Below, in pieces: positions 33 to 16,014 of a stretch of 38,018 bases of DNA. A program made the translations under genes and the position numbers. The stretch spans positions 1-38,018 of the forward strand of contig JAKFUT010000014.1 of the NCBI GenBank assembly GCA_021732565.1, given 5' to 3'. This DNA is from Candidatus Obscuribacterales bacterium. GTDB lineage: Bacteria; Cyanobacteriota; Vampirovibrionia; Obscuribacterales; Obscuribacteraceae. How positions within the stretch are numbered: position 1 is the stretch's first letter; the number at the start of each line of letters is the position of its first letter. The notes beneath the pieces were generated by a model. It searched no databases. It saw only the letters and a program-made list of their open reading frames with translations, and was not told the origin of the DNA.

Positions 33-731
33 TCAGTTTTTTGATTTACGAATGCGCGGAAGTTCATCGACAACTATGTACCTACCCTTGGTCAAATCAA
101 GTTCATTTCCTCCCTCCTCTTTCGTAACCATTATTGGCGGTCGGTTGTCATCCCCATCGTCACGAGGCATGATGCTCTCGTCATTAGCGCGCTCCGGCAT
201 CTCGCTTTGCGGCTTGGCGTCAACGCGCTCTGATATGGAAGCCACATCCTCTGCTGGCTGACAGCCAGCTGCCTTGGAAGGAGGAGATTCCTTACTATCG
301 CTTTGCGGAGGGCTCTCTTGCTTCTCACCATGCGGTTTGACATCAACACTCTTAGATATGGAAGCCACATCTTGTGCTGGCTGACAGCCAGCTGCCTCGG
401 AAGGAGGAGATTCCTTACTATCGCTTTGCGGAGGGCTCTCTTGCTTCTCACCATGCGGTTTGACATCAACACTCTTAGATATGGTCGCCGCAGGGTGTTC
501 TGTGGGCGGGAAACAGATGATTACAGGCGGCAGCTCCTTTGATATACCGTTTTGAGGAATGTTCTCCGGTGCTCCGTTTGATGCCGAACCAGTGCGCTTC
601 GGCGACTCTGACACGAATTCTTTTGCGGTTTCGGTTCGTTCGTACAAGCTAGCCGCGATGGTATTCCAGCTATCGGACTTGTGCTCGTCTTCTTCCGGCA
701 CCGTGCTTAGTGCGTCGTTTTCGGTGTTCAT
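33..731 (-). CDS. Acidic low-complexity protein with tandem 41-residue repeats
   Basis: I do not recognise this protein. It is about 232 residues, hydrophilic, rich in Ser, Pro, Glu, Lys and Asp, with no signal peptide or membrane segment. The middle holds two almost identical 41-residue repeats (starting ISKSVDVKPHGEKQE, ending AAGCQPA) and a degenerate third copy (ISERVDAKPQSE). The C-terminus (TKGRYIVVDELPRIRKSKN) is basic and less repetitive. The start at 731 is chosen because AGGAG lies 7 nt upstream of ATG; an upstream ATG at 782 has no such site. The gene is transcribed away from the Ser/Thr kinase gene and is preceded by a four-box promoter array (826-879) shared with four other genes in this window. 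It is probably an intrinsically disordered protein; function unknown. Confidence 0.7.
   Translation of the reverse strand: MNTENDALSTVPEEDEHKSDSWNTIAASLYERTETAKEFVSESPKRTGSASNGAPENIPQNGISKELPPVIICFPPTEHPAATISKSVDVKPHGEKQESPPQSDSKESPPSEAAGCQPAQDVASISKSVDVKPHGEKQESPPQSDSKESPPSKAAGCQPAEDVASISERVDAKPQSEMPERANDESIMPRDDGDDNRPPIMVTKEEGGNELDLTKGRYIVVDELPRIRKSKN
232..477. repeat. Two tandem copies of a 123-bp in-frame repeat
   Basis: Units at 232-354 and 355-477 are nearly identical at the nucleotide level and are followed by the beginning of a further copy at 478. The period of 123 bp equals 41 codons, so repeat changes keep the reading frame. The near identity, including third codon positions, indicates a recent duplication and a locus likely to vary in copy number between strains. 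Confidence 0.9.
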
Positions 732-825
732 ATTCTTCACTCCTATTTCCGCTTGCAATTGAATCATGCGGGTTGGTGTCATCGATGCCCCATTTGTACG
801 AACATTGTTTAGCGGGCTAGAGTGC

Positions 826-879
826 AGTATCCATTAGTGACACAACAAGCTAGTGACACAGTGATGACAAAGTGCTGAC
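826..879 (-). promoter_or_regulatory. Four-box 11-bp activator array plus -10 (site A)
   Basis: Read on the minus strand from 879: GTCAGCACTTT, GTCATCACTGT, GTCACTAGCTT, GTTGTGTCACT, then the spacer AATG and the -10 GATACT (831-826). The layout is identical in spacing to four other sites in this window. It would start transcription near 819, about 90 nt before the ATG at 731. No -35 hexamer is visible where one would be expected; the third box lies there. The rest of the 732-1151 gap (880-1151) shows no clear promoter for the kinase gene and nothing else recognisable. Confidence 0.85.
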
Positions 880-1151
880 TGGAAGGTGGCCGTCGATGCG
901 TAATAATTGTTCAGTACGGTTGCCAGATTGTCGGCTCCCGCTTCTAACAGCCTTTCTTCGAATTACAGTTTGTCGTCAGCGACCAAAACTGTCTGATTCG
1001 AAACAGTTCGGTTAATTTATGCTCTTCCATCCGTACGTAGTTTTGCGTGGTCAAAGTCAGCCTTTCCGGGAGATAGTCGGTACCATAATGATGTAGGAAT
1101 TCGCCACAAGGGTATAAGAGACCTCTGACAGCCTACTAATGATCGCCCGCC

Positions 1152-3215
1152 ATGGAAGAGCCAGGAATTCTCGGACAAACTATTGCACAGTATCGAATTT
1201 TGTCGTTACTGGGCGAAGGAGGTCTTGGAAGCGTTTACAAAGCTGAAGATCCAATACTTGGGCGCGTCGTCGCCATCAAAGTGCTGCACCGCAGCCTGAC
1301 ATCGAGCGAACGTGTGAACGATCGATTCGTTCGGGAAGGAAAGATTCTTTGTTCACTATCACACCCCTCCATAGTCAAATGTTTTTCGTTTGGCGTGTGG
1401 AGAGGGCGCATTCCGTACCTCGTTTGTGAGTATGTAAGTGGTGAAAGTCTGCGACAGGTTTTGGCGCATGGAAGATTGAGCTGGCAAGACGCATCTGCGA
1501 TGATAGCTCAGATTTGTGACGGTCTGAGCTACGCTCACCAACGTTCTATCGTACATCGAGATCTCAAGCCTGAAAACATAATGGTAGACGATTCCTCTCA
1601 CGTCAAAATTCTAGATTTCGGATTGGCTGGCACTGGCAGCGGGCAACTACGAAATGAACACGACATGAAGTTAACACAATCCGGAGCACTAGTTGGAACC
1701 ATCAACTACATGAGTCCAGAGCAAAGTAGCGGTCAGCGCGCCGACAGCCAATCAGATATTTATGCAGTGGGATGCATATTGTACGAGCTGGTAGTAGGCC
1801 ATCCGCCTCACAGTGCGGATAGCCCGGTGGGAGTCTTGTACAAGCATGTTCACGATACGCCCGATCCACCGGGAAGATTCGTTGACGAATTACCACCCGG
1901 GTTTGACAGAGTTGTTTTAAAGGCTTTGGCCAAGAGAAGAGACGAACGCTACAAAACAGTCGATGATTTGCGCAAAGATTTGGACTCAATTCTAGCGGGA
2001 GGCGCTCCGCTGGCGCTTTGCTCCCCCCCGGCGATCCTGCGAGCGTCCAACAAATGGCTGTTTGTTCTTTTGGCAATCACACTCGTGATAGCTGGAACAC
2101 TTCTCACGTTAAACCAGAATTTACAAGGCCCCGGTGACAAGGCTGCACTACCTGAGGACAATACACGCACCACAGATAGTCTTTTGCCATCTACGGCTCG
2201 ATTCACATACGAGACAATTGTTCGACTGCGCTTTTCGCCTGGAACTAGAGAACGAAGGTTAAGGATTGCCAAAAATTGGCTAGCGAAAGATTCTGGCAAA
2301 TCCGATCGCTGGCACACGGCGCTGATTCTTCTCCAACTGGGGGAATCAGAATCGTTTTTCGGTGGAGATGCGAGCAACATCCAGATCCCTGTCACTCCGA
2401 TCGCCGGTCGCCTTCATTTTCTTGAAGCACTGCGGCTGATGGCTGATTCCAAAGGAACCGAGCATTTTCATATAGCCCTCATCAGTTTGGGCGAGGTGGA
2501 GGCATTTCAGCTAAATGACGCCAAGTCAGGGAGAGAGCGACTTCTTGAAGCATTGAAGAGTTTATCTTTGTTGAAACGAACCGATCATTGGGTCATCTAC
2601 AATCGCATCAGAGCTCTGTGTAGCCTCGGTGACATGGAGATAAATCAGCTGAATGACCCCGGCTCAGCGCGAGAACATCTGCTTGAGGTGCTGAAAATTC
2701 TGACTCGTTCCCCGGTAGCCGATGTATCGGGCCTCTTGCAGCGGGTAAGCGTTCTCTCTAACTTGAGTAAAGCGGAGGCACGGCTGAAAGACGCCAAATC
2801 AGCACGAGAACGCCTTCTTGAAGCGCTGAAGCTTCTGGCCGAATCCAAAACAACCGATGTGTCCGTTCTTCACCGGCGAGTAGATGTTCTCTGTGAACTC
2901 GGGCAGGTTGAGGCCAAGGAGCTGAATGATGCCGCATCCGCACGAAATCGTATCGATGAAGCAATAGAGCTTCTTGATTCAGAGAAAACGGATCCACCCT
3001 CAGAAGTTCTATCTAACCTGGTCAGGCTAGAAACGCAGCTCAACAATCCCAACTCAAAAAGGCAAGGATTGGTTGAAGGATTGAAACATTCCACCAATTG
3101 CAAGGATACGGATAAATGGACCGTCCGATGCCGGCTAACCGCCCTCCACAGGCTGGCAAAAAACGCAAAGAAGGCGGACAAACCGACTGCAGGTGAGCAG
3201 ACATTGCAACACTAA
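1152..3215 (+). CDS. Transmembrane Ser/Thr protein kinase with helical repeat domain
   Basis: A 687-residue eukaryotic-type (Hanks/PknB-like) protein kinase. The kinase domain spans about residues 14-280: Gly-rich loop GEGGLGSVYK at 21-30, catalytic Lys43 (VAIKV), catalytic loop HRDLKPEN with Asp137, DFG at 155-157, SPEQ activation-segment end, and DIYAVGCILYEL. All catalytic residues are present, so it should be active. A hydrophobic segment (about 301-320) follows and would anchor it in the membrane. The remaining part is a helical array with a period of about 43 residues (ARERLLEALKLL-type helix repeated at least four times), resembling TPR repeats and likely a protein-binding or sensor domain. 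It starts with ATG at 1152; no strong ribosome site is visible. It sits beside genes of the shared-promoter set but does not itself carry the array. Confidence 0.93.
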   Translation: MEEPGILGQTIAQYRILSLLGEGGLGSVYKAEDPILGRVVAIKVLHRSLTSSERVNDRFVREGKILCSLSHPSIVKCFSFGVWRGRIPYLVCEYVSGESLRQVLAHGRLSWQDASAMIAQICDGLSYAHQRSIVHRDLKPENIMVDDSSHVKILDFGLAGTGSGQLRNEHDMKLTQSGALVGTINYMSPEQSSGQRADSQSDIYAVGCILYELVVGHPPHSADSPVGVLYKHVHDTPDPPGRFVDELPPGFDRVVLKALAKRRDERYKTVDDLRKDLDSILAGGAPLALCSPPAILRASNKWLFVLLAITLVIAGTLLTLNQNLQGPGDKAALPEDNTRTTDSLLPSTARFTYETIVRLRFSPGTRERRLRIAKNWLAKDSGKSDRWHTALILLQLGESESFFGGDASNIQIPVTPIAGRLHFLEALRLMADSKGTEHFHIALISLGEVEAFQLNDAKSGRERLLEALKSLSLLKRTDHWVIYNRIRALCSLGDMEINQLNDPGSAREHLLEVLKILTRSPVADVSGLLQRVSVLSNLSKAEARLKDAKSARERLLEALKLLAESKTTDVSVLHRRVDVLCELGQVEAKELNDAASARNRIDEAIELLDSEKTDPPSEVLSNLVRLETQLNNPNSKRQGLVEGLKHSTNCKDTDKWTVRCRLTALHRLAKNAKKADKPTAGEQTLQH

Positions 3216-3281
3216 GGCGACTTACTGTAAAGCAGTCGTCCTGTCACACTCAATTCGTCTTCTTTCTGTACACAGCGCCAA

Positions 3282-3335
3282 GTCAGCCGTTTGTCAGAAC
3301 CTGGTCAGCAGTTTGTTAGCTCCGTCGGCGATACT
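3282..3335 (+). promoter_or_regulatory. Four-box 11-bp activator array plus -10 (site B)
   Basis: Boxes GTCAGCCGTTT, GTCAGAACCTG, GTCAGCAGTTT, GTTAGCTCCGT run without gaps from 3282 to 3325, followed by CGGC and GATACT at 3330-3335. Predicted transcription start is near 3342, giving a leader of about 170 nt to the ATG at 3511. This is the most regular of the five arrays: three of its four boxes begin GTCAG. The rest of the 3216-3510 gap shows no other clear signal. Confidence 0.88.
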
Positions 3336-3510
3336 ACGGTGAAGCTTGGAACGAAGCTATCGAATACATTCTTATTCATCGTTTCTTGCTCTCGATGAGT
3401 CTGTGGTCTAAAGCCCACGCCAATCTCATCTAGAAAAGCTAAGTACTGATGAATTCTCCTAACAAGTTCGGGAAAGATTTTGACAATTCAGCGAGGCGAT
3501 GGCAGCTTGA

Positions 3511-4851
3511 ATGAATAAAAGAAGAAAGACAAAAGAAACAGAACACTTGGAGCCTATTAACGGCGATCAAGCAATCTTGCTTACCGAGGCCAGCGCACTC
3601 AGAATTATCACTGTGATTGATAATATCGATCACTCAGGCGAACTCCCGGAAGACAATCCTGTACTTACTAACATTGCCGATGAAACGAAAGACGGTGTGC
3701 GCATTATCGGAGTGCCCGGACACACTTACGCAACCGTTGGCTGCACTCCGGGCCAAGCTCTGGTGAACGCGTGGCTAAAGATTGGAAACGTCATAATGAG
3801 CTGTTATGGAATCGGCATCGTGGCTGGAATCGTGATTATGATCATGATGTGTCCATCCCACGACATCATAGCCGGAATAAATCTCTGGTTCGCCATTCTC
3901 GAAGTAATCTGGCTGGGAGCGTTAGGAATGCTAATCAGTGGTTGGAAGCACGTCGCAATTTCAAATCAGCTAAACCTGCTTAAGTTCGTATTGGGGATAA
4001 CAGTTTATGCGGTGTTAATTGGTAACGTGGTTACATGTTTCCGGCAGAACAAATGCTCGACAAGTGAGAAGATCAAACAATTAACCCTAGTTGTCATCTC
4101 TACGCTACTATTGATTCCTTGTCCATCCATGGGCACTGAAAGATATCATACGGCACCACGCTCGGCTCACGATTTTGAAGGATTGGTCATTGGCATGATC
4201 CTCGCTCTACCATGTGGAGCCTTGTTTTCTTTGATGCTCAGCGCCTCGGTCAAAGAGGATCCTGCGCAGCATTGGTTTATGTCTTTTACTCTCTTCGTGC
4301 TGTTCTCAATGATGCTCACCATTCCTGTCACTGTGGTCATCAGAATGCAAGGCAAAATGAGAAAGAGCACGCAAGGCAAAGAGAGAGATCGCAGCACTAG
4401 TGGAGTGGCTCCGGCTGAGGGAAGAGAAGAATTCGTAAGAGAAGTAATTCAAAAGCTTTATCAAACCGGTGACCCTTCTGTGTTGAAGAACAATTGGCTA
4501 CCCGACGCACGTGCCCGCTTTACCACTGAATGCGAACTGCAGATACGCAAGGCACTAGAAAACAGGAAGGCCTCTATGGGTTCATACAGCAGATTACGTG
4601 AGTTAGCCCCATGTCCATTGGGACACGGACCAAGTTTACCCATTGCACAGGTGTGGTCGAAAGTAATGGCAAAATTGACAATTTGGACTGGAAAGTACGT
4701 TGTAGAAGATTACATCGCTGGACTCGATTTTGAGACCGGGTTCATTAATATGAGTCTCCGCCTCATTTATGACATTCCCGAAAAACGCTGGTACTTCGGT
4801 GATTGGCAAGTGACTTCTTCAATGGAGTCACGCAACAAAAAAAGTACCTGA
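3511..4851 (+). CDS. Polytopic membrane protein with soluble C-terminal domain
   Basis: Not recognised as a known family. The 446-residue protein has a hydrophilic N-terminus (1-90), about six hydrophobic segments (roughly 92-113, 119-144, 155-176, 190-205, 222-245, 256-278), then a charged linker and a soluble domain of about 140 residues (305-446). That domain ends in a pattern of Trp-rich strands (RWYFGDWQV) that could be an NTF2-like fold; this is a guess. The start at ATG 3511 fits the start of coding bias but has only a distant GAGG upstream. It is the single gene downstream of array B, so it belongs to the proposed regulon and would be its inner-membrane member. Confidence 0.8.
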   Translation: MNKRRKTKETEHLEPINGDQAILLTEASALRIITVIDNIDHSGELPEDNPVLTNIADETKDGVRIIGVPGHTYATVGCTPGQALVNAWLKIGNVIMSCYGIGIVAGIVIMIMMCPSHDIIAGINLWFAILEVIWLGALGMLISGWKHVAISNQLNLLKFVLGITVYAVLIGNVVTCFRQNKCSTSEKIKQLTLVVISTLLLIPCPSMGTERYHTAPRSAHDFEGLVIGMILALPCGALFSLMLSASVKEDPAQHWFMSFTLFVLFSMMLTIPVTVVIRMQGKMRKSTQGKERDRSTSGVAPAEGREEFVREVIQKLYQTGDPSVLKNNWLPDARARFTTECELQIRKALENRKASMGSYSRLRELAPCPLGHGPSLPIAQVWSKVMAKLTIWTGKYVVEDYIAGLDFETGFINMSLRLIYDIPEKRWYFGDWQVTSSMESRNKKST

Positions 4852-4991
4852 AGGCATTAGACAATCGCTCCAGTCGTTATCATGCAATCTTGACGATCTC
4901 CGATTTGATTAAACTGTAAAAAGCTGCCTCAAAAACCTAACAGCTCAACCTTGTTATTTCAGACGCTAGGCTGATCTGTAGAGTCTGCTCT

Positions 4992-5045
4992 GTCAGCTGT
5001 TTGTTATACCGTCGTCGGGAGTTTGTTACCGCCGATGAGGATAAT
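4992..5045 (+). promoter_or_regulatory. Four-box 11-bp activator array plus -10 (site C)
   Basis: Boxes GTCAGCTGTTT, GTTATACCGTC, GTCGGGAGTTT, GTTACCGCCGA occupy 4992-5035, followed by TGAG and GATAAT at 5040-5045. It is the only one of the five with GATAAT instead of GATACT, closer to the sigma-70 consensus. Predicted leader to the ATG at 5172 is about 120 nt. The remainder of the 4852-5171 gap contains no other recognisable element. Confidence 0.86.
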
Positions 5046-5171
5046 TGCGTTGAGAGTTGAACAACGACAGCTTGACCGCTAGACGAAATCTTCAGCGTTC
5101 ACTGAAGCTTCACCACCACAGGGATGGAAGTGCTTCCGAGACATTTGACTACGAAAATCGGGGAGTAATCA

Positions 5172-8100
5172 ATGGCATTAATAGATGAAATACCAAGCAT
5201 TGGGGACAAAAAGGCCTGGAGCGATGTGACGCAGGCTCTTCTGGAACACCTCAATATGAAAGACTGCGTAGATCTTCGTAAATCTTTGCCTGACACGGCT
5301 CGTGAGCTCCCGCCCCTAACAATTTCCACCGACACCGACAAGAAGGATAAGACCATGGAAATTGTTGATGACGGGAACGTTCTCCTCAAGGTAGTGTATG
5401 ACAAAGATTTAGCGGACCCCAAAAAAATGCCGACAGCCGTCACTGGGCGCGATGGTGTTACTTGGAAGAAGGATGGGGATAAATGGCTCGCCACGGATAA
5501 AGATGGCAAGCAAATTAAAGGTACAGATGGCAAGCAAATCACTGCAGACAAGGTAGAAGTATCCGGCACCGAAGCCGATACCACTGTGACAATTAAGCAG
5601 GGCGACAAAACTACCGTGCAACGACTGGACGGATCAAGTATCACGGAAAAGACCGCGCGGGGTGACTCCAGCCATATGGTCGTAAAGGATGCTGATGGCA
5701 ATGTGACCAAGGTGATCCATAACAACCAGGAATTCAAAATCAAGGACGGCAAGGTCATTGGCGCGGACGGGCGGACAAAAGAAGGATATACGTTTGATAA
5801 GGAGACTAGCGAGATTCAGTTCAAAAAGGGTTCTTCAGTAATTACGCTGAAGGAGGATGGCCGCACCGAGCTGGTTTCGAAGACGGGAGAAAAAATCATC
5901 GGTTTTGGTGATGGCAGTCGAATTTACCAGGACAAAGACAACAAGGTTGTGGGTCTTCGAGAGAGCAATGGCAATATGGTTCGGCCGAATTCCGATGGCA
6001 CTTGGCAGGTGACCAAAAACGGCAAGCCCGTCCCAGACCATGTATTGAACGGCAAGAAGGTTGATAGCGTTGACTCAACGACAGGCGCCGTAACATTGAA
6101 AGATGTTCCGGCTGGTGGCAAGCAAACAATTAAATATCTAGATCATGAGGTCGTTAAAACGACTGGCGGACTGATCGAACAGATGAAGGACTCCAAAGGC
6201 GTCGTCTATGATTTCAAATACGATGGCGCGAAGAACATAAAATCGATTACCCCACTGAAGGCGGATGGCACGGCGGAAGATACGCCGATCTTCGAGAAGT
6301 CTCCGAAAATCGGTGTTGTGGTGGATGAGAAGAAAGGCCTCGTGTCAATCACAAATACCGCGACGAGCGAAGTTGTTAAGTATGACCTTGCTGAACGGTC
6401 TAGAGAAAGTACTTGGCTGACCTCGGAGAAAAAGTTCGCTGACGGACGAACTGAACATCGTGATCTAAAAACCGGAAGGCTTGAGGCTCTGGAAGATAAA
6501 TTGGGGAATGGAAGTGAATTAACATACGGAACAGGGGCAGAACGCAGCAAGATAACCAACTATAAACATCCCAGCGGACAGAAATACGAAGTCGGTGTTG
6601 ATGGCGTCAAGAGAATCGACGTCAAGAACGGTATCGTCACTATCGAGAAAGAAACAGAAGATAGAAAATCAGTTCAAATCAGCTATAAGCCCGATGGTTC
6701 AGTCGAGACCTCCAGAACTGATGGTAGCAAGGTAATCGTTCAGCTGGATCGTTTTGGGCGGCCCGGCAGCATCAATGATGGCGACAAGAAGTACACGATC
6801 AATTACGAAACGGCACCACCGGCTTTGAGCCTCGACGGTAAAGAAATCAATAAGGGTGCCGCAGTCACGGCCACACCTGAAGGAACCATCAAGATCGAAA
6901 AGGCAGAGGAAACGATTACGATAGATCCTCTACGTCGTTCAGAGACAAGAGAAACTGGCGCAGAGAAAGTCGAGAGAATTACGGGCGCCGACAAGACCCT
7001 CAAATCTGAAGTAACAATTAGGAAAGAGGATGGAAAACCTGTCTCTGCCGAGATAAAAGGTCCCGATGGCAAGGTCGCCTACACCGCAAAAATTGATTCT
7101 TCCAAACCCGGACCACCCTATACTGTTACGGAGATTCGAGATGGCACCGGCAAGCTAGTTGCGAAAGCCTCTGCTTCAGTCGAATTGTCCCTGGACAGCG
7201 ATAGAATCACGGCAAAAATCACAGCCAAATCAGGAGAGCACACAGTGACCCTGAACCCGGATAAGTCCCGCGAAATTAAGTTTCCAGATAACCACACCGA
7301 ACGCCGGTTACCTGGCGGATGGATATCTGAATATCGTTCGCCAGATGGGAAGACCGGATACAACGTCGAATACGAGAAGAACGCGGATGGGTCTATTAAG
7401 ACCGCGCGTGGACAAGCGGTGCCGAAGGAAATCACTTTCAAGCCCTCGGGCTATAAGCTAGAGCATCAGGAAGATTTGCTTAGCGGCACGTCAAAACTAA
7501 TTCTTCACAAGGATGGAGCAGCACCGGAAGAATTGAAGTCGATGACTATAGATCGTCGAGGCATTATTCATGTAGAGACTGCGTTGGGAAAACGCGAACA
7601 GATCGGGGTAAAGGGAGACAAACTATTCAGAATGCCAGAGGAAGCAGCTCCCCGCACCGATGTTCCCCCTCCACCGGGACGAGTGCGCCCCCGCACCGAA
7701 ACGGCAGAGGCACCGCCAGCGGGATCAAAAATGGAGATGACAGTGCGCGATTCCGTTAAGATGCCAGACGGAACAATAGTTCAACGGGGCACCACCCCCG
7801 ATGACTACCCGGCGACTCGAAAGATCATCACTGAGCGCGACGGTACCACGTCTATAGTTGAGTCGCGACGAATGCCAGACAGAACGATTCAAACCGTGGT
7901 GACTGACGGACGAACCGGCAACACGAATGTTGTCACTACCGACGCCGGCGGCGCAGTGATTCGGATCGAGGCCCGGGACGCAGCGACTGGTCAGACTCAA
8001 GTGTGGCAGCAAGAAGGCAGATTGTTGCGAAATGGTCTCTGGTATGGCAACCGTGTATTCAACGGAATGGTGAACGGAGTGCCCCAAAGAGACTATCTTC

Positions 8101-8207
8101 GTACAATTCGGCTGAACGATAAAGGAGAGCTGGAGTACACCAACAGAATCGGTCAAAGATATATTGCGCAACGAGATTTATTCGCTCCTCGCAGACCAGC
8201 CGCATAA
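5172..8207 (+). CDS. Very long repeat-rich hydrophilic protein (YD/Rhs-like pattern)
   Basis: A 1011-residue protein with no signal peptide or membrane segment. Most of it (residues about 55-800) is made of short, degenerate strand-turn repeats with the recurring pattern DG-polar-hydrophobic (DGKQIKGTDGKQ, DGSVETSRTDGSKV, DGVTWKKDGDKW), similar in style to YD/Rhs or MORN-like beta repeats, although no canonical Rhs core or toxin tip is visible. A proline-rich linker (VPPPPGRVRPR) lies near residues 828-850 and a separate C-terminal part of about 140 residues follows. GGGGAG seven bases before ATG supports the start. It follows array C and is probably a monocistronic regulon member. It could be a surface or scaffold protein exported by an unrecognised route, but location and function are unknown. 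Confidence 0.8.
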   Translation: MALIDEIPSIGDKKAWSDVTQALLEHLNMKDCVDLRKSLPDTARELPPLTISTDTDKKDKTMEIVDDGNVLLKVVYDKDLADPKKMPTAVTGRDGVTWKKDGDKWLATDKDGKQIKGTDGKQITADKVEVSGTEADTTVTIKQGDKTTVQRLDGSSITEKTARGDSSHMVVKDADGNVTKVIHNNQEFKIKDGKVIGADGRTKEGYTFDKETSEIQFKKGSSVITLKEDGRTELVSKTGEKIIGFGDGSRIYQDKDNKVVGLRESNGNMVRPNSDGTWQVTKNGKPVPDHVLNGKKVDSVDSTTGAVTLKDVPAGGKQTIKYLDHEVVKTTGGLIEQMKDSKGVVYDFKYDGAKNIKSITPLKADGTAEDTPIFEKSPKIGVVVDEKKGLVSITNTATSEVVKYDLAERSRESTWLTSEKKFADGRTEHRDLKTGRLEALEDKLGNGSELTYGTGAERSKITNYKHPSGQKYEVGVDGVKRIDVKNGIVTIEKETEDRKSVQISYKPDGSVETSRTDGSKVIVQLDRFGRPGSINDGDKKYTINYETAPPALSLDGKEINKGAAVTATPEGTIKIEKAEETITIDPLRRSETRETGAEKVERITGADKTLKSEVTIRKEDGKPVSAEIKGPDGKVAYTAKIDSSKPGPPYTVTEIRDGTGKLVAKASASVELSLDSDRITAKITAKSGEHTVTLNPDKSREIKFPDNHTERRLPGGWISEYRSPDGKTGYNVEYEKNADGSIKTARGQAVPKEITFKPSGYKLEHQEDLLSGTSKLILHKDGAAPEELKSMTIDRRGIIHVETALGKREQIGVKGDKLFRMPEEAAPRTDVPPPPGRVRPRTETAEAPPAGSKMEMTVRDSVKMPDGTIVQRGTTPDDYPATRKIITERDGTTSIVESRRMPDRTIQTVVTDGRTGNTNVVTTDAGGAVIRIEARDAATGQTQVWQQEGRLLRNGLWYGNRVFNGMVNGVPQRDYLRTIRLNDKGELEYTNRIGQRYIAQRDLFAPRRPAA

Positions 8208-8474
8208 ACCCTGAAACGTTTTACCCTTCAGCCGGCAGCGCCGAAGTGACAGCTCCTGCTACTTTGTACTTGCCTCTATCGGTAGCATTCGTTGAAGCTC
8301 GCTGAACCGCGCCTGGCGCAAAACGGCCGCACTGGCAACGCGAGTGCTGACCGACATTTGGCAATGCAATCTGCAAACTACTAGCAGCTTCGGCTGTGTC
8401 CAAATTTATAACGCGTTTATACTCGGTCTCCGGATCGGGATGCTCTGACAGTCAGTGCAAAACAGGGTTACCAG

Positions 8475-8528
8475 GTCAGCACCTTGTCATAAGTCTGTAA
8501 CCGAAATGTTAGGTTCGCGGCGGATACT
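8475..8528 (+). promoter_or_regulatory. Four-box 11-bp activator array plus -10 (site D)
   Basis: Boxes GTCAGCACCTT, GTCATAAGTCT, GTAACCGAAAT, GTTAGGTTCGC run 8475-8518, then GGCG and GATACT at 8523-8528. Predicted start of transcription is near 8535, about 60 nt before the ATG at 8595. A further GTCAG at 8451 is out of phase. The rest of the 8208-8594 gap holds a 60-codon minus-strand open frame with no ribosome site, which I do not accept as a gene. Confidence 0.88.
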
Positions 8529-8594
8529 ACATTGTGACGGGCTAACAAACAAAAAAGAGATAGAGAGAAGCTGATGGTTTCGCAGGAGGACTGA

Positions 8595-10436
8595 ATGATT
8601 GAAGGAAGAAGTGATCAATTTACGCCGGATCGTGTTGACACGGTCGGCTCGCAACTAGCAGAGCAAGCATTGGTTGAAATGGACCACTCCGAATCGCCAA
8701 GGACTGATTCGCCTATGGACAATTCGAAACTGCAACTCCCCGGAGTCAATATCGATAAACGAGATCTAAATGACGATCTGACGCACTTGCCTGATTCAGA
8801 ACCCGATAGTTCGAAAAGCAGCCCGTCATCAATTCTGAAAGATCTTGAGAAAACAACTCGAGAAATTGGAGACAAGCCTAAGCCAACCACTGACGATGCC
8901 TCCGCGAATCCAGCTGACTTTCTGGAGTTGTTAAAGCGATCAATCACCCGTGATGGTGAGTCCCTACTATTACAGGAGGTCCTGCGAGATAACCCCACTC
9001 TAAAACAACTCGAGGAATTTAGCAAAGATCCAAGAGGGGCTCGGACTTTTGGAGAATACCTCAAGAACGAAGAGCTGAGACGCCCGGCGACGGTTGACAC
9101 AGCGAGCTCAGATGCGGAGACTCGACGACGAGCGCGGGACATATTGAAGGAAACGAAGGGATACGAAACCGGAATAATAGTCGGAAACACAACTGGCAAT
9201 ACTAACATTGAGCAACGTTCGACGATGAGTGATACCCACAGCACGGAAAACTTCAACTTCCGCCCACCAGCCGGTGAGGAGGACCGCGAGAAGGGCGGGC
9301 TTTCGGTGCCATCCGATAGCGGAAAGCAGGAAAAGAATCGCACTGCTGCCGACATAGTGGGAGAAAAATCTGCTGAACAAAACGTCGATAAAACTTCCGA
9401 AAATGCACCGGGCAAACTGGCAGAAACTCCGAAGGCTCAACCGGAGGAGTTGCGGAGAGTCACTGACAGCGTGCCATATGCAAGTAAATACAGAATCCCT
9501 TCGGAATCGCTGGAAAAATCCCTGTCACCGGAAAGTCTCAAAAAATTTGAAGAGATCAAGAAAGCACTGCTCTCGGCTGACAACCCGGATAGTCTTGTTA
9601 AGGCAATTCATTCGCTCAATGGAAATCCTGATAGCGAAAAAATTCTGAAGGCCATTGTGCAGAGCGCCAAGAAGGAAGGACTTTCGGCAAGCTACTCCTA
9701 CGATAAGAATAGCGAACCGCCAGTAGCGAAATTAAAGTTAGGGAGCGGTAACGGACGGTACTCCATAGATATGAGTTCTAAACCGGATTCCAAACCTGTT
9801 GCACAGGAACACCAGATAAATTGGAAGAAAATTGGTGATAAATACGATCCAAATTGGACTGTTAATTCAGTCGATGTCAGCATCGCCACTGCATGGAAAG
9901 CTGTGCAGGATAAAAGAATAGGAGACAACTCGAAAGATCCTGCTAAACCTCAAGAGGCTAAAAGACAAGATTTTGTGCAATTTGCCGGTGGACTTACTGA
10001 ACAGCTCAAGACCCCTGCCGAGCTGAAACGAATAATCGAGGACAATAAACCAAAGACCGAGTCTTCCACTGACAAAACCGGCAATGTAACCAAATTCAAA
10101 GACGGCAATTCAGCCGTAGAATTCGAACACGATCCGGGCAATGCCGGTGAACTCTCTAAGGTGACGATTACAAAGCGTGACGAAAAGACGGGAAAGCTTA
10201 GTACTGAGATATTTGAAAAGAAAGAAAGCGGTCTGGTATTTCACACGGTAAACGGAAAGACAACCGCATTGGATTTGAGAACTGCGTCGATCAAGCTTAC
10301 TGACGAAGGATTCAAGATCCAAAATGATCGCGGCAAAGTGGTGGACCAAAGAAAAATACCCGGAGTAGATACAGACCTCGCCTGGCAGAAGCAAATGATC
10401 AAGGTCAAGCACGACCCGCAGATGACGCCGGGTTGA
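8595..10436 (+). CDS. Large hydrophilic repeat protein, probably frameshifted at its 3' end
   Basis: Not a recognised family. The 613-residue frame starts after a strong AGGAGG five bases before the ATG. Residues 1-300 are low-complexity, rich in Ser, Asp, Lys and Pro, with helical patches (FLELLKRSITRDGESLLLQEVL); 300-480 look mainly helical; from about 490 the protein turns to beta-strand repeats (GNVTKFKDGNSAVEFEHD, SGLVFHTVNGKTTALDLR). No signal peptide. The stop at 10434-10436 overlaps a TTG that opens the next frame (-1), and that frame continues with a second copy of the same strand pattern, so the two frames probably form one protein of about 730 residues. The gene follows array D. 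Confidence 0.78.
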   Translation: MIEGRSDQFTPDRVDTVGSQLAEQALVEMDHSESPRTDSPMDNSKLQLPGVNIDKRDLNDDLTHLPDSEPDSSKSSPSSILKDLEKTTREIGDKPKPTTDDASANPADFLELLKRSITRDGESLLLQEVLRDNPTLKQLEEFSKDPRGARTFGEYLKNEELRRPATVDTASSDAETRRRARDILKETKGYETGIIVGNTTGNTNIEQRSTMSDTHSTENFNFRPPAGEEDREKGGLSVPSDSGKQEKNRTAADIVGEKSAEQNVDKTSENAPGKLAETPKAQPEELRRVTDSVPYASKYRIPSESLEKSLSPESLKKFEEIKKALLSADNPDSLVKAIHSLNGNPDSEKILKAIVQSAKKEGLSASYSYDKNSEPPVAKLKLGSGNGRYSIDMSSKPDSKPVAQEHQINWKKIGDKYDPNWTVNSVDVSIATAWKAVQDKRIGDNSKDPAKPQEAKRQDFVQFAGGLTEQLKTPAELKRIIEDNKPKTESSTDKTGNVTKFKDGNSAVEFEHDPGNAGELSKVTITKRDEKTGKLSTEIFEKKESGLVFHTVNGKTTALDLRTASIKLTDEGFKIQNDRGKVVDQRKIPGVDTDLAWQKQMIKVKHDPQMTPG

Positions 10437-10783
10437 AAGTACAAACAGACAAGGACGGGCGAGTTATCAATATCGCGCAGAAAGATGGAGAAGGAGGGTC
10501 CATCTCTATTTCATATGAAGACAAGTCGGCTACCAACCTTCGAATGATAGACTTCAATCAGGAGAAATACTATATCCAGAATGGCATAGTGTTTTTTCAA
10601 ACTGGTAATCGAAAACCAGAGGCGCTAACGAATGTTGGTGGCAAAATAATTCTTGAAGACGGTGCCATTAGAATCGTCGATGAGAAGGGAAAGAGTGTTG
10701 AGACTATCTCTTGCCAACAACTCGGAGCGAGTCTGGCTGTCAAATTACAAACAGCTGGCCAAGGCAAACCCGGCAAACGTTAG
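10433..10783 (+). CDS. Continuation of the preceding repeat protein in the -1 frame
   Basis: This 116-codon frame begins at a TTG that overlaps the upstream stop and has no ribosome site of its own. Its content parallels the last domain of the upstream frame: NGIVFFQTGNRKPEALTN-G-KIILEDGAIRIVDEKGKSVE here against SGLVFHTVNGKTTALDLRTASIKLTDEGFKIQNDRGKVVD there. This suggests a tandem domain duplication split by a frameshift (real, programmed, or an assembly error) near 10427-10440. Alternatively it is a separate, translationally coupled gene. A strong hairpin follows the stop. Confidence 0.6.
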   Translation: MKVQTDKDGRVINIAQKDGEGGSISISYEDKSATNLRMIDFNQEKYYIQNGIVFFQTGNRKPEALTNVGGKIILEDGAIRIVDEKGKSVETISCQQLGASLAVKLQTAGQGKPGKR

Positions 10784-10791
10784 TTAATCAT

Positions 10792-10833
10792 CCACGAGGA
10801 ATTGCCGAGATTGAAGTGGGCAATTCCTCGTGG
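10792..10833 (+). terminator. Hairpin with perfect 15-bp stem
   Basis: CCACGAGGAATTGCC (10792-10806) pairs perfectly with 10819-10833 across a 12-nt loop, directly after the stop at 10783. There is no T-run after the stem, only TTCATCC, so it is a terminator or 3' end stabiliser rather than a textbook intrinsic terminator. Confidence 0.7.
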
Positions 10834-11038
10834 TTCATCCTGGCTTTCGCGAAACTCGTTGCCCGCTTACAACGACTCCACGTTGAGAATCTACGTGCTG
10901 CGGGGCGGTCTCTTCAGCGAGCAACAGATCCTTCGGAATCTAACGAATCATTTCTGCGTCCAGGGAGCAGCTCAGACTGCGCGTAATGAACTGCAGGCGA
11001 ACAACAATTGAATATCCATTCAGCAGTATCGGGCCGAT

Positions 11039-11063
11039 TTATTCATAAATGATCGGTGAATAA
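11039..11063. promoter_or_regulatory. Inverted repeat upstream of small gene
   Basis: TTATTCA (11039-11045) and TGAATAA (11057-11063) form a perfect 7-bp inverted repeat with an 11-bp centre, 24 bp before the ATG at 11088. The AT-rich composition and position fit an operator or an mRNA leader hairpin. The 10834-11038 stretch before it has no accepted gene. Confidence 0.35.
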
Positions 11064-11087
11064 TAGAGATAGCGAGATAGGAAGAGA

Positions 11088-11360
11088 ATGACTCAATCTA
11101 ATCACAAAACAACGGCTTTCATGTGTGGAGGCGATCTACAGTTTGTTGAGGTTGAGTACACCGGACTCGGCAATCTGATTCGGAGACGCCTGCTAAATTC
11201 AGGAGACATAGTCGATGAAATCACTTGTCCCGCCACGTCAACGGGCTGTTCAATAGATGAGATATCGATCTCATCATCAGGCACCTGGCTTGTCACTAGC
11301 AGAACTTCCGGGCAAGGGGAATGCGCCACACCGCATCCAGCAGGTGGCAGGCTAATGTGA
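11088..11360 (+). CDS. Small protein, possibly a truncated remnant
   Basis: A 90-residue soluble protein of unknown family, starting MTQSNHKTTAFMCGGDLQFV. GATAGGAAGAG just before the ATG is a good ribosome site. The first 75 residues look like a folded beta-rich start (VEVEYTGLGNLIRRRL, SSSGTWLVTSRTSGQGE), whereas the last 15 (CATPHPAGGRLM) look out of character, as though a longer protein had been cut by a frameshift or deletion near 11320. That is inference. A hairpin follows at 11387. Confidence 0.55.
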   Translation: MTQSNHKTTAFMCGGDLQFVEVEYTGLGNLIRRRLLNSGDIVDEITCPATSTGCSIDEISISSSGTWLVTSRTSGQGECATPHPAGGRLM

Positions 11361-11386
11361 TGGAAGCTGGATGTTCTTATGTTCTT

Positions 11387-11409
11387 ACTGGACATCGGCT
11401 ATGTCCAGT
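11387..11409. terminator. Hairpin between convergent genes
   Basis: ACTGGACAT (11387-11395), loop CGGCT, ATGTCCAGT (11401-11409): a perfect 9-bp stem lying between the stop of the plus-strand small gene and the stop of the minus-strand DUF4328 gene. It can serve both. Followed on the plus strand by TCTTA. Confidence 0.6.
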
Positions 11410-11420
11410 TCTTAGACGAG

Positions 11421-12077
11421 TCACTCACTCACACTGAGACAGAGGTTTCGCTTGTTCTCCTGGCGGATCGCTATCACGCCAAGAATCACAATTGCCAATA
11501 TAGCCGCGGCCACGAAAAATCCCGTTGAGAGAAGATTCATGAGTTGTGCTACAAGCGGGTCTATCGGCAAGAGTTGGCTTAAAACTCGTATTGCCGGGCA
11601 AGCCAGCCAACAAATCCAACATGCATAAATCTGCCTTGAAGCTGTTCCAACCTTCCAGCCTTGCGAGTCTAAAATGGCTGGATTACTTCCCTTCCACACT
11701 TCTTGCAAGATAATCATTGGTACCAATAGGTTCACAATGGGAATCAAGAAGCCCCAACAGTACCAATCTTTGTTCTTAGCTCCAAGAGCGTTTAGTGCCG
11801 GGAGATTTCTCAATGCCTTTCGCATCCATGTGACAAAGAAGAGTGCGGTCACAATATTGAGAGGAAGCAGCAACATGTATGCCAGATTCCCCAAGATACT
11901 TATAAGCGCCGCAATGTTGGACAGATTCTCGGATGCGAATTGTTCTTTGGTGGCACCACAAATAGTGTCGATTACAGTAAGACTCGTCACCAACACGATC
12001 AACACTTGGAGCGCTCTTCCGGTGCCTTTGACGGGTAGAAATGAATCGGTGGTCGGAGCATTGAAGATCATGTTCAT
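11421..12077 (-). CDS. DUF4328-like membrane protein
   Basis: A 218-residue protein with about five membrane segments (roughly 21-40, 54-82, 107-125, 151-169, 185-204). The segment at 91-131 contains NLPALNALG, then a WYCWGFLIPIVNLLVP core and LQEVWKGSNP, matching the characteristic pattern of DUF4328 (ALG..., W...FIPIVNL..P...L.E.W.GS). Function of that family is unknown. The start at 12077 has AAGG about 9 nt upstream; a second Met lies two codons later. TATACT at 12104-12099 on the minus strand could be its -10, but no matching -35 or 11-bp array is present, so it is outside the shared-promoter set. Confidence 0.8.
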   Translation of the reverse strand: MNMIFNAPTTDSFLPVKGTGRALQVLIVLVTSLTVIDTICGATKEQFASENLSNIAALISILGNLAYMLLLPLNIVTALFFVTWMRKALRNLPALNALGAKNKDWYCWGFLIPIVNLLVPMIILQEVWKGSNPAILDSQGWKVGTASRQIYACWICWLACPAIRVLSQLLPIDPLVAQLMNLLSTGFFVAAAILAIVILGVIAIRQENKRNLCLSVSE

Positions 12078-12238
12078 TTACTTACCTTAGATGTTTGCAG
12101 TATACGTTCAATCCCATTGAGAGCCCGTTGAGGCAACTGTTTGTATCTCTCCTCACTTCTTACCCATGCACTCCGCAAAACCACTTCCCTTAGCATCCGT
12201 CCTTGTCTACCACGCGAAGTTCCAAGCCTTGCGTAATT

Positions 12239-13093
12239 CTATGGCTTGAAGAGCTGATACATAATCTCATTGGGAGTCATTCCTTCAGTTCTCGCAAGCC
12301 TTTGTTTGGTTTCATTGCTAATTGCAATTAGGCGATCCCACTCTTTTCCGCTCACTCCTCCTGACCGGGCTTCGATACCAGCAGTAGTGGCATCACTTAA
12401 CGCTCGTTTTGACCGGGCTTCGATACCAGTGGTGGCTTCACCCAACACCTGGTTTGACCTCACGGATGATAGTCCACGAGCCAGCAGCAAGCTGCCACCG
12501 AACATGGCACTACCTCGTAACCAGTCGGAGCTCGACCCGATGTTTCCATTATTGACCAGGTCTCTGGTGAACCCGGCCGAGGCGAGTCCAAGCCCGATTC
12601 CTGCCACTTTTCCCCAACCGGGAGCATTCGTCAGCATTCTTTGAATTCCGTATTTGGTGAGGAAGCCTGCACCAATGGCGGCTGCGTCGCTGCCAATCTC
12701 TCTCAATACGCTTGGTCGCGCAGTTGTTTGCTGATCGAGAGATTCTCTTTTGACTGGCGATTTGCTAATAATTGATTGTGCCAACTCTCTTACAATTCGG
12801 TCTTCCGCAGTCTTTCGATCTCCGGAAAGCAGCGGCTCAGGGACCGGAAGGTCCGTTCGGAAACCTCCCGCTGGTCGTCGCGCGGCGCTGAGTCCCTGGC
12901 CAAACCCATACGGATCTCCGCCGCTGCCCGGGGTTCCCTCGCCTTGATGATACCTGTAGGGGTTGCCGTTACTGGGTTTCCCGTCTCCCCCGCTCAATAT
13001 ATCAACTGAGTTCAGTGGCGTAGGGTCTGCGTCCCTTCCAGACAGTTTGTTGGTGTAATTTCCCGTTTCAAACGGGTTACGCCCATTTCCCAT
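12239..13093 (-). CDS. Gly/Ser-rich protein with hydrophobic middle region
   Basis: Not recognised. About 284 residues: the first 100 are low-complexity and rich in Gly, Asn, Pro and Asp (NPYRYHQGEGTPGSGGDPYGF); residues 125-205 are Gly/Ala-rich and moderately hydrophobic (AAIGAGFLTKYG, GLGLASAGFTRDL, AMFGGSLLLARGL), like a weak membrane-associated or helical glycine-zipper domain; the C-terminal 80 are helical and charged, with a short internal duplication (ATTGIEARS / ATTAGIEARS). GAGGG nine bases before ATG supports the start. It lies downstream of array E and of the response regulator gene, with its own promoter, so it is the fifth regulon member. Confidence 0.75.
   Translation of the reverse strand: MGNGRNPFETGNYTNKLSGRDADPTPLNSVDILSGGDGKPSNGNPYRYHQGEGTPGSGGDPYGFGQGLSAARRPAGGFRTDLPVPEPLLSGDRKTAEDRIVRELAQSIISKSPVKRESLDQQTTARPSVLREIGSDAAAIGAGFLTKYGIQRMLTNAPGWGKVAGIGLGLASAGFTRDLVNNGNIGSSSDWLRGSAMFGGSLLLARGLSSVRSNQVLGEATTGIEARSKRALSDATTAGIEARSGGVSGKEWDRLIAISNETKQRLARTEGMTPNEIMYQLFKP
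12362..12429. repeat. Short in-gene direct repeat
   Basis: A 20-bp sequence beginning TGACCGGGCTTCG occurs at 12362-12381 and again at 12410-12429. The 48-bp offset keeps the frame and produces the duplicated GIEARS peptide in the minus-strand gene. Confidence 0.75.
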
Positions 13094-13321
13094 ATCTAAA
13101 ATCCCTCGTGATTAAATTGCATCATTCATTGATAACAATTGAGTGCAGGCAGCCCATTTTCCAATAAATGTCATCCCGACGATCTTCGTTGTATCGCCAA
13201 AGCGTTACGATCTCCCTGCCGATGTCTCAGGATAGTATTTCCGACAAGGATTGAGAGACGGATCGGTGTTCGACGACCGTCTGTGGCTCGTTCAATATCG
13301 AACGTTAGCGCCTTGTCCTAA

Positions 13322-13375
13322 AGTATCGCTATACGCACTAACAAACTGACTACATCGTTATAACAAAGTGCTGAC
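13322..13375 (-). promoter_or_regulatory. Four-box 11-bp activator array plus -10 (site E)
   Basis: Read on the minus strand from 13375: GTCAGCACTTT, GTTATAACGAT, GTAGTCAGTTT, GTTAGTGCGTA, then TAGC and GATACT (13327-13322). Box 1 is identical to box 1 of site A. Predicted leader to the ATG at 13093 is about 220 nt, the longest of the set. It lies only 70 bp downstream of the response regulator stop codon. The remaining 13094-13321 sequence shows nothing else. Confidence 0.86.
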
Positions 13376-13445: not shown

Positions 13446-14132
13446 TCAGCACTGTTTCCCGGGAGTTCTGAGTCTGTAGCCCACGGAGAAAACTGTCTCG
13501 ATGATCGACGGCTGGCCTTCCCGATCGATCTTGCGACGAAGCCTCATTATAGTTGTGGTGACTGTTTCAGGAGATATTGTTGAATCAGATAGCCAGACCC
13601 TGGCCAGCAGCGCGTCGGTACTAAATACCTGGTTAGGGTGACGAAGGAAAAATTCTAAGAGCGCAAATTCCTTCGGGTTCAGTTTCAGTTCCTGTCCGCC
13701 TCTGTACACTGAATAACTGGACACATCCAATGTTATATCACCGGCTGCCAGTATGTTTCCAAGGCATTCGCGGGGCCGCCTCAGGAGTGCGGTAACTCTG
13801 GCTGTTAGTTCACGCAGGTTGAACGGCTTTGTAAGATAATCGTCGGAACCGGCCGCGAAGCCTTCTTCCTTGTCGTCTATACTGCTTTTTGCGGTTAGTA
13901 ACAATGCGGGGGTGGTGCCGCCTTGATTTCGAAACTCTTTCAATACCGACAGACCACTACCATCAGGCAAGTTCCAATCAAGGATCAAAAGGTCGAAGTC
14001 GGAGATAGCCATGCGGTCGGCAGCATCGACCACTCGCAGGCAATGTTCGACTGTGTGGTGAATTCCTGAGAGCCACTCCAAAATGGGTTGCGCCAAGTTC
14101 TGATCATCTTCTAGCAAAAGAATCTTCGCCAT
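13446..14132 (-). CDS. OmpR/PhoB-family response regulator
   Basis: A 228-residue two-component response regulator. The receiver domain (about 2-118) has the acidic pair at 9-10, phospho-acceptor Asp52 (LILDWNLPDGSG), Thr80 and Lys102 (DDYLTKPF). A winged-helix DNA-binding domain follows (about 125-223: LKLNPKEFALLEFFLRHPNQVFS, then TVTTTIMRLRRKID and the wing VFSVGYRLR). All key residues are intact. The start at 14132 (MAKILLLED) is preferred over upstream Mets because AGGA lies 8 nt before it. It is divergent from the sensor kinase gene 14437-16014 and next to five promoters with 11-bp direct repeats, the spacing typical of this regulator class, so it is the likely activator. Its own upstream region lacks an array. 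Confidence 0.95.
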   Translation of the reverse strand: MAKILLLEDDQNLAQPILEWLSGIHHTVEHCLRVVDAADRMAISDFDLLILDWNLPDGSGLSVLKEFRNQGGTTPALLLTAKSSIDDKEEGFAAGSDDYLTKPFNLRELTARVTALLRRPRECLGNILAAGDITLDVSSYSVYRGGQELKLNPKEFALLEFFLRHPNQVFSTDALLARVWLSDSTISPETVTTTIMRLRRKIDREGQPSIIETVFSVGYRLRTPGKQC

Positions 14133-14436
14133 TACATACATCCTGGAATTTAAATCGGACATACCACACCTCAAACAGCCTTAAACGCAAATCTTTGTCA
14201 ACAGGATTCAGCAGTTACCTTGTAAACGTGCACACCCGAATCGCTTCGCCATTAGCGAGCTCAGCGGCTATCAGTAAATTGTTGATAAACTCCCGGTTGT
14301 GGACTGCCAATCTGTTTCTGACGCAGTTCAGCGGGGATATATATTTGGGACTCAACGAAAAGGTAATTGGCCGCAAGTTTCTATTGCAGGCAAGTAGACT
14401 GTTGAGTTTGTATGCGCCTGAGCAGATAATGAATTG
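14133..14436. other. Divergent control region between response regulator and sensor kinase
   Basis: About 300 bp separates the two start codons. A GATATAT element at 14336-14342 could be a -10 for the kinase gene, but no matching -35 is convincing. No copy of the four-box array is found here, so the pair does not appear to be controlled like the five target genes. Confidence 0.4.
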
Positions 14437-16014
14437 ATGAAAGCGGTTGAAAATCAGGACAACAGTCGGTCGCAACAATTGCGTACATGGTATCTGGCGC
14501 GATTGCGTAAACAAGCATTCGTCGCTGCTGATAATCTAACGCCGATGGCCCTCATGGATACGGACCGCAAATTCATCGAAGAGATGATCCTCAAGGTTGC
14601 TCCCGTATCTCAGACAGCGCCAAAGAAAGTATTGCTAGACACGCGCGAAGCAAGACTGATCGCAGTGGTGGCGGCGGTCATATTGCTGCTGGTTGGCAGT
14701 ACCGCCGTTTCTTGCATTGCCTTGTTCGAGTTGCTCTCCAAGACTCCCAACCCGGATGTTGTACTTTGTCAGCGCATCCTATTTGTAACCGGCACGCTGA
14801 GTTTTGCACTGGGTTGCCTTGGTTGCTTGATCCTCTGGTCGCTTCTTCGCACCATTTCCAATTTGGCATTTCAAATTTCACAAGACGCCCATTCACCATC
14901 GACTGGAAACACAACCGGTGGCGACCTCCAAAAGCGACTAACCTCAATTGTGCGTAGTCGCGATGAGTTCGCCAAACGGGAACAACTGATTGCCGATGCC
15001 GCCAGCGATATTATCTGCTGCTTTGACAGTGAATTGCGAATTCTAACCTGTAACTCAACACTGGAGAAATTGCTCGGTTTTGGCGCCTCGGAAGCATTTG
15101 GGAAGAAGATTTCTGCTTTTGCTTTGGCTGAGGACATCGCTCGAACCGAAAATATGTGCAAAGCAGTGCGCGCAAATAAGCAGGCCGCCACATTTGAGAA
15201 TCGAGTTCTTGCTGCAAATCAACATGCTCTCGATCTGCGGTGGACTGTTGAATGGTCCGACACGGAGAATTGTTATTTCGCCTGCGCCTCAAACATTACC
15301 GATCAAAAAACTCTTGAGAGAGCTAAGCGTGAATTTATTGCCATGATTGGCCACGACGTTAAAATTCCACTAGCAGCGGTACTTTTAAACATCGATATTG
15401 TTGAAAGCCGTCTTTCCGGACTTTCGCAGAGCGCAATTAAAGCTCTAGCTCGTGCTCATCAAAGCCTCGACCGCTTAATCGGGTTAATAAACGAGTTATT
15501 GGATTTTGAAAAATTGTCGGCGGGAAAAATGCGCTTATACACACAAGATGTGGCTCTCGACGAGCTCCTGCATAGCGCCATTGAAGAGGTATCTGAAATG
15601 AGCGCTCAAAAAAGAATCAGAATACAAGATCGAACACAAAGATTGAAGCTAATCGCGGATCCAGACAAGCTAGTACGTGTGCTGGTCAACCTCATTTCAA
15701 ATGCCATAAAATATTCCCCGGAAGGCTCTTGTGTACAGATACATACAGTGGTTCAACACGACTTTGTGGAACTGCGAATACAGGACGAAGGCAGCGGCAT
15801 TCCACAGCAATACCACCAGCTGATCTTTGAACGTTATGAAAGAATGGACCATCACGAACAATCCGCGATCGAAGGAACCGGGCTCGGACTCGCGATCGCC
15901 AAGTGCATAATAGAATCACATGGCGGAATGATCGGAGTTGACTCAACTGTCGGAAAAGGCAGCACCTTTTGGATTTCAATGCCCTTTCGCTCAGAACGTC
16001 AAAAGAACCAATGA
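14437..16014 (+). CDS. Membrane sensor histidine kinase with PAS domain
   Basis: A 525-residue sensor kinase. Two hydrophobic segments (about 73-98 and 113-136) enclose only a short external loop, so the signal is probably sensed in the membrane or cytoplasm. A PAS domain follows (about 184-290: AASDIICCFDSELRILTCN, SNITDQKTLERA). The dimerisation/phosphoacceptor region has FIAMIGHDVKIPL with His306, unusual in having HDVKIP where HELRTP is common. The ATPase domain has the N box (LVNLISNAIKYSP), G1 (DEGSGIP, Asp450) and G2 (GTGLGLAIAK). A TTG immediately before the ATG could also serve as start. Divergent from the response regulator gene, so presumably its partner. A weak GGGCGCGCCC palindrome lies at 16121-16130 downstream. 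Confidence 0.95.
   Translation: MKAVENQDNSRSQQLRTWYLARLRKQAFVAADNLTPMALMDTDRKFIEEMILKVAPVSQTAPKKVLLDTREARLIAVVAAVILLLVGSTAVSCIALFELLSKTPNPDVVLCQRILFVTGTLSFALGCLGCLILWSLLRTISNLAFQISQDAHSPSTGNTTGGDLQKRLTSIVRSRDEFAKREQLIADAASDIICCFDSELRILTCNSTLEKLLGFGASEAFGKKISAFALAEDIARTENMCKAVRANKQAATFENRVLAANQHALDLRWTVEWSDTENCYFACASNITDQKTLERAKREFIAMIGHDVKIPLAAVLLNIDIVESRLSGLSQSAIKALARAHQSLDRLIGLINELLDFEKLSAGKMRLYTQDVALDELLHSAIEEVSEMSAQKRIRIQDRTQRLKLIADPDKLVRVLVNLISNAIKYSPEGSCVQIHTVVQHDFVELRIQDEGSGIPQQYHQLIFERYERMDHHEQSAIEGTGLGLAIAKCIIESHGGMIGVDSTVGKGSTFWISMPFRSERQKNQ

Follow-up and report, generated by a model that had tools for sequence, protein, structure and literature searches.

What controls the genes that lie behind a set of repeated promoter-like arrays in an uncultured, non-photosynthetic cyanobacterium, and is the layout of these arrays new? 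The question is raised by a 38,018-nucleotide stretch of Candidatus Obscuribacterales bacterium (assembly GCA_021732565.1, contig JAKFUT010000014.1), hereafter called the window. An earlier note on this DNA had described five promoters in it, each with four 11-bp boxes, and had assigned them to one activator of the OmpR/PhoB type. Our analysis shows that the arrays are real, functional-looking and coherent, and suggests that they most likely serve a private regulon, run by a PhoB-like two-component system through ordinary class II promoters of the PhoB type. The layout is known from phosphate genes of E. coli; here, both the box letters and the genes behind the arrays are different ones.

Direct read-out of the sequence recovered all five arrays where the earlier note had placed them. 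Array 1 (826–879, minus strand) has its boxes at 869–879, 858–868, 847–857 and 836–846, the gap at 832–835 and the putative -10 element GATACT at 826–831, and lies ahead of the gene at 33–782. On the plus strand, the boxes of array 2 (3282–3335) start at 3282, 3293, 3304 and 3315, followed by the gap at 3326–3329, GATACT at 3330–3335 and the gene at 3511–4851. Array 3 (4992–5045, plus strand) has box starts at 4992, 5003, 5014 and 5025, the gap at 5036–5039 and the hexamer at 5040–5045, ahead of 5172–8207, and array 4 (8475–8528, plus strand) has box starts at 8475, 8486, 8497 and 8508, the gap at 8519–8522 and GATACT at 8523–8528, ahead of 8595–10436. Array 5 (13322–13375) is again on the minus strand, with boxes at 13365–13375, 13354–13364, 13343–13353 and 13332–13342, the gap at 13328–13331 and GATACT at 13322–13327, ahead of 12239–13093. 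The four boxes follow each other without gaps in every array and all 20 begin with GT; box 1 carries GTCAGC and box 4 carries GTT in five of five arrays. The distance from box 4 to the -10 element is 4 bp throughout, and the element itself is GATACT in four arrays and GATAAT in the array at 4992–5045.

The bare pattern GT-N9-GT-N9-GT-N9-GTT-N12-GATAMT was found five times in the window, as compared to a mean of 0.00 and a maximum of 0 in 100 dinucleotide shuffles. With GTCAGC and TT added to the pattern and up to three mismatches allowed, there were still five matches in the window and none in the shuffles. We also searched the complete 8.58-Mb assembly, in which the window is contig C47 and which is estimated to be 67% complete. 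Allowing three mismatches, the pattern was found in eight places, and in none for the reversed pattern. A sixth good site was identified at C223:9097–9150 (no mismatches) and a seventh at C409:1039–1092 (one mismatch); the eighth place, on contig C105, has three mismatches, overlaps a long open reading frame and is probably due to chance. A 54-column profile built from the seven sites returned those seven alone, at 43–51 bits and with none intermediate, among the 150 of 1,097 first-look candidates that were scored. A looser pattern of two boxes with two mismatches was found in 31 places in this genome versus 34 in the control, and was dropped.

All seven good sites are located between open reading frames and oriented toward the next gene. 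The earlier note had named arrays that are equally frequent inside genes as the result that would speak against it; the genome-wide scan did not give this result, and it extended the regulon of this genome to seven sites. Five of the seven are clustered within 13.4 kb beside a single two-component pair. The C223 site and array 5 are identical at 51 of 54 bases; the flanks of the sites are largely unrelated, and elsewhere only the box cores and the -10 element are retained. In a search of 59 relatives, neither the exact array sequence nor a comparable site was found: the same-genus species had no pattern matches, and the matches in three other relatives carry three mismatches. A 30-base profile match in the next species, G001 (E 1.05), together with partial box-like stretches near the regulator in that genome, formed no array, and at L069 of G015, two boxes that match exactly were accompanied by neither further boxes nor a -10 element.

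Comparison with E. coli showed that the layout had been described before. The pstS promoter, taken from the genome record, reads GTCATAAAACT GTCATAAACCT TACATATAACT GTCACCTGTTT - GTCC - TATTTT, and the phoA promoter reads GTCATAAAGTT GTCACGGCCGA - GACT - TATAGT. Like the window arrays, the pstS promoter, which has two tandem pho boxes for PhoB, consists of four 11-bp boxes that follow each other directly and in an identical register, with a 4-bp gap and without a -35 element; it differs in the box letters (GTCATaaaact versus GTCAGCnnTTT in the window), in the -10 element TATTTT and in the phosphate genes that it precedes. The phoA promoter, which has one pho box, shares the 11-bp boxes, the 4-bp gap and a similar -10 element, TATAGT, but contains two boxes rather than four. 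Since box length, register and gap are identical in pstS and phoA, the layout was already known, and the statement in the earlier note that no described promoter class has it was wrong. Its interpretation of the arrays as sites of an OmpR/PhoB-type activator that replaces the -35 contact is supported in outline.

The literature agrees with this placement. A pho box consists of direct repeats of 11 nucleotides (PMC4415409) and precedes the -10 element by about 10 bp, counted from an 8-bp core (PMC1906773), and structural models have been cited in support of a strict spacing between the pho box and the core promoter elements (PMC10294691). Cyanobacterial SphR sites contain at least three tandem 8-bp boxes with 3-bp linkers, which amounts to 11 bp (PMC1906773). 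The SphR/PhoB sites of photosynthetic cyanobacteria (Synechocystis) resemble the window arrays in having three or more tandem boxes of 8 + 3 = 11 bp and an OmpR/PhoB regulator, but they have the core CTTAACCT, belong to phosphate genes and lie at a variable distance from the start codon (PMC1906773). Two features of a PhoB-type promoter were seen in the genome studied here: the 11-bp tandem direct repeats are present at seven of seven sites, and the distance from the last box to the -10 element, with boxes in place of a -35 element, is fixed at 4 bp in all of them.

We conclude that the arrays are probably PhoB-type class II promoters, with the response regulator encoded at 13446–14132 (minus strand) as the most likely activator and the divergently encoded histidine kinase at 14437–16014 (plus strand) as its candidate partner. 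The seven arrays would then be activator-dependent promoters of the sigma70 type. The kinase, most likely paired with this regulator, would phosphorylate it, and the phosphorylated regulator would bind head-to-tail as two dimers, one on the 22-bp unit of boxes 1 and 2 and the other on that of boxes 3 and 4. The last dimer would occupy the place of the -35 element and contact region 4 of sigma, and RNA polymerase would then start from GATACT, 4 bp past box 4. Regulator binding, activation, the pairing of dimers and the assignment of the -10 element are what we infer from this arrangement. The occupancy by two dimers, proposed earlier, gains support from an alternation of box letters with a 22-bp period: a column comparison of the seven sites showed that boxes 1 and 3 are alike (TTT ending), as are boxes 2 and 4 (GTYA/GTTA, with the C at position 8 mostly conserved), which defines two asymmetric 22-bp units.

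Both the receiver domain (Response_reg, PF00072) and the winged-helix domain (Trans_reg_C, PF00486) of the regulator score above cut-off, and its nearest named relatives are from metagenome-assembled genomes of Candidatus Obscuribacterales and Melainabacteria. The kinase has PAS, HisKA and HATPase_c domains and, judged by eye, two membrane stretches with a very short loop between them. Two of the four named base-contacting residues of PhoB are T194 and R201 (PMC3264566). The regulator retains these, as well as R203 and T217, and has T in place of V197 and F in place of R219. These residues are in keeping with a GT core that is kept and flanking letters that are changed.

We also analyzed a sample of 100 loci (1.18 Mb), most of them around PhoB-like regulators of Obscuribacterales. 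Intergenic tandem four-copy repeats in this sample peak at a period of 11. When a CA core was required, 20 arrays in 17 loci were identified at period 11, as compared to 0, 0, 2, 2 and 0 arrays at the control periods 8, 10, 13, 14 and 16, and none in five shuffles. Contiguous control slices of the G013 genome (0.8 Mb) were not wholly empty, with four period-11 arrays in three loci, one of which, L200, has the full layout. With the register set by the CA core and no -10 element required, a -10-like hexamer was located at +4 in seven arrays and at +5 in three, and not more than twice at other offsets. Examples are GTCACGCTTAT GTCACGAACCC GCCACGCTTTT GTCACGCCAGC - GCCA - TAAAAT at L152, GCCAAAATTCT GCCAAAACTTT GCCCGGCTCCT GCCAACCGCCC - CACC - TATATT at L123 and CTCACAATCCA GTCACTAGTCG CTCACCCGTCG CTCACAACAAA - AAAA - TAGACT at L142. 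These three and the arrays at L158, L167 and L200 share the frame of the window arrays, with four boxes of 11 bp each and a -10 element after a further 4 bp, but differ in their letters (GCCAAA, CTCAC, GTCACG) and precede other, unrelated genes. The frame is common across Obscuribacterales systems and the box letters differ. A conserved 4 x 11-bp array (box GCCACAAGTCC) is also present near PhoB-like regulators at L110, L112 and L113, but a -10-like hexamer is missing from the position where it would be expected, and these arrays were not counted as support. At L102:3943–4020, again near a PhoB-like regulator, about seven boxes of 11 bp (GTCAAA/GTCGAA) form a longer array. In the G013 slices (L179–L218), intergenic three-copy repeats of period 13 were enriched, unlike other periods, and eight of them have at least six of seven invariant columns.

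The box letters seem to follow the recognition helix of the regulator encoded nearby. Of the 19 loci with a (T/S)TC recognition-helix regulator, 10 have GCCAA arrays, whereas only 1 of the other 72 loci does. The Fisher p of 1.4e-7 overstates independence because the helix class was picked after the arrays had been seen and the loci are partly orthologous. PhoB-like response regulators form an unusually large set in these organisms, with at least 81 in the genome studied here (G000) and at least 75 in G001 at E ≤ 1e-30. In our view the chances are about even that a single PhoB-like two-component system has given rise in Obscuribacterales to scores of paralogues, which share one frame but each have their own box letters. 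The recognition code of OmpR/PhoB regulators could then be deduced from pairs of helix and box that occur in nature, and the window would hold one such private regulon. A lineage-wide common frame with differing letters is more interesting than the window regulon itself. If it is true that neighboring regulators read the arrays, each locus supplies a recognition helix together with its natural box. How paralogous regulators of the OmpR/PhoB type are kept apart, a long-standing question, would then become testable by comparison.

Several observations weigh against the assignment of the arrays to the regulator at 13446–14132. No array is located ahead of the regulator gene or the kinase gene, the closest same-genus regulator (60% identical) has no matching arrays, and two of the seven sites (C223 and C409) are on contigs without such a regulator gene among the listed frames, one of these two sites preceding an apparently decayed gene. 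Moreover, the family has at least 81 members in the genome (E ≤ 1e-30), and with so many paralogues, another one could own the arrays. The promoter type would then be the same and the pair at 13446–16014 just a neighbor, which would fit the lack of an array upstream of the pair and the two unlinked sites. However, five of the seven sites flank the pair, and in other species the array letters track the class of recognition helix in the regulator encoded nearby; we consider it unlikely that another paralogue is the activator, and the earlier choice of the neighboring regulator as the best candidate is retained. It is very unlikely that the arrays are instead operators for the repression of genes started by other means: OmpR/PhoB regulators can repress, PhoB being a dual regulator (PMC10294691), and box 4 abuts the -10 element, but activation is favored by the constant gap of 4 bp, by the location of the arrays upstream and by their identity in layout to the activated pstS and phoA promoters.

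The match of the box core (T)GTCA and of the geometry to E. coli pho boxes could also indicate a phosphate (Pho) regulon with the organism's own PhoB and PhoR, and the models of these two proteins are indeed among the best family matches of the pair. Yet the scores are well below the cut-offs, at 179.7 bits for the regulator (PhoB cut-off 296.2 bits) and 192 bits for the kinase (PhoR cut-off 334.2 bits). Furthermore, there is no phosphate uptake protein, phosphatase or other phosphate-related family among the targets examined, and PhoU was not found in the 67%-complete assembly. Nothing supports a phosphate link of the regulon, and we regard this explanation as highly improbable; by sequence, the pair is best called PhoBR-like. 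The near-identity of array 5 and the C223 copy (51 of 54 bases) might also suggest a repeat that has spread through the genome by copying and has no regulatory role. To this we give next to no credence, as the flanks are largely unrelated with box cores and -10 elements alone kept at the other sites, all sites are intergenic with a gene-ward orientation, and shuffles yield none. The PhoB-type promoters read by the neighboring pair remain our preferred explanation. On this view, sequence alone has defined a regulon with seven or more promoters in an uncultured lineage whose set of similar regulators is very large.

No target that was examined scores above the cut-off of a Pfam or NCBIfam family of known function, in agreement with the earlier claim that several unrelated proteins are coordinated. 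For proteins of Candidatus Obscuribacterales that could not be placed otherwise, the regulon offers a first point of access; that they form an envelope or surface program is only a guess. The product of the first target (33–782, minus strand) is a low-complexity protein of 249 amino acids without family match; its true start may be a later ATG preceded by AGGAG (MNTEN...). A tandem duplication was seen inside this protein (ASISKSVDVKPHGEKQESPPQSDSKESPPS...). The second target (3511–4851, plus strand; 446 amino acids, no family match) has hydrophobic stretches when inspected by eye. The third (5172–8207, plus strand; 1,011 amino acids) is repeat-like, with weak Tcp10_C repeats under the Pfam cut-off, and its one other match in 36 genomes is partial and from its own genome (C158, 39%). 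The fourth (8595–10436, plus strand; 613 amino acids, no family match) is polar and low-complexity-looking, and its end is overlapped by a frame at 10433–10783.

The fifth target (12239–13093, minus strand; 284 amino acids) has about ten relatives in its own genome (the best on C87, 64%), several of them inside proteins of 900–1,600 amino acids; outside this genome, it had two matches, both in the same-genus species, among the 36 genomes. By sequence it resembles a shortened version of these 900–1,600-amino-acid proteins, which have a glycine-rich hydrophobic stretch, and the long paralogues gave no match to Pfam. No relative of the fifth or third target was found in named genomes and viral contigs.

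Two of the seven arrays have a divergently oriented protein kinase gene beside them: a Pkinase-type gene at 1152–3215 of the window and, on contig C409, a gene that is kinase-like by sequence (L014:1287–5632). Opposite these two kinases, on the other side of the array, there is a low-complexity target in both cases. On contig C223, a partial second array of two boxes (GTCAGCCCTTTGTCA) is located at L013:9335–9349, 185 bp past the full site, and the frames beyond it look decayed or frameshifted; among them is a gene resembling thioredoxin reductase that is divided between two frames. Further along, the window encodes an RNA ligase of the T4 RnlA type (30782–31948) and an integrase of the phage type (34552–35424).

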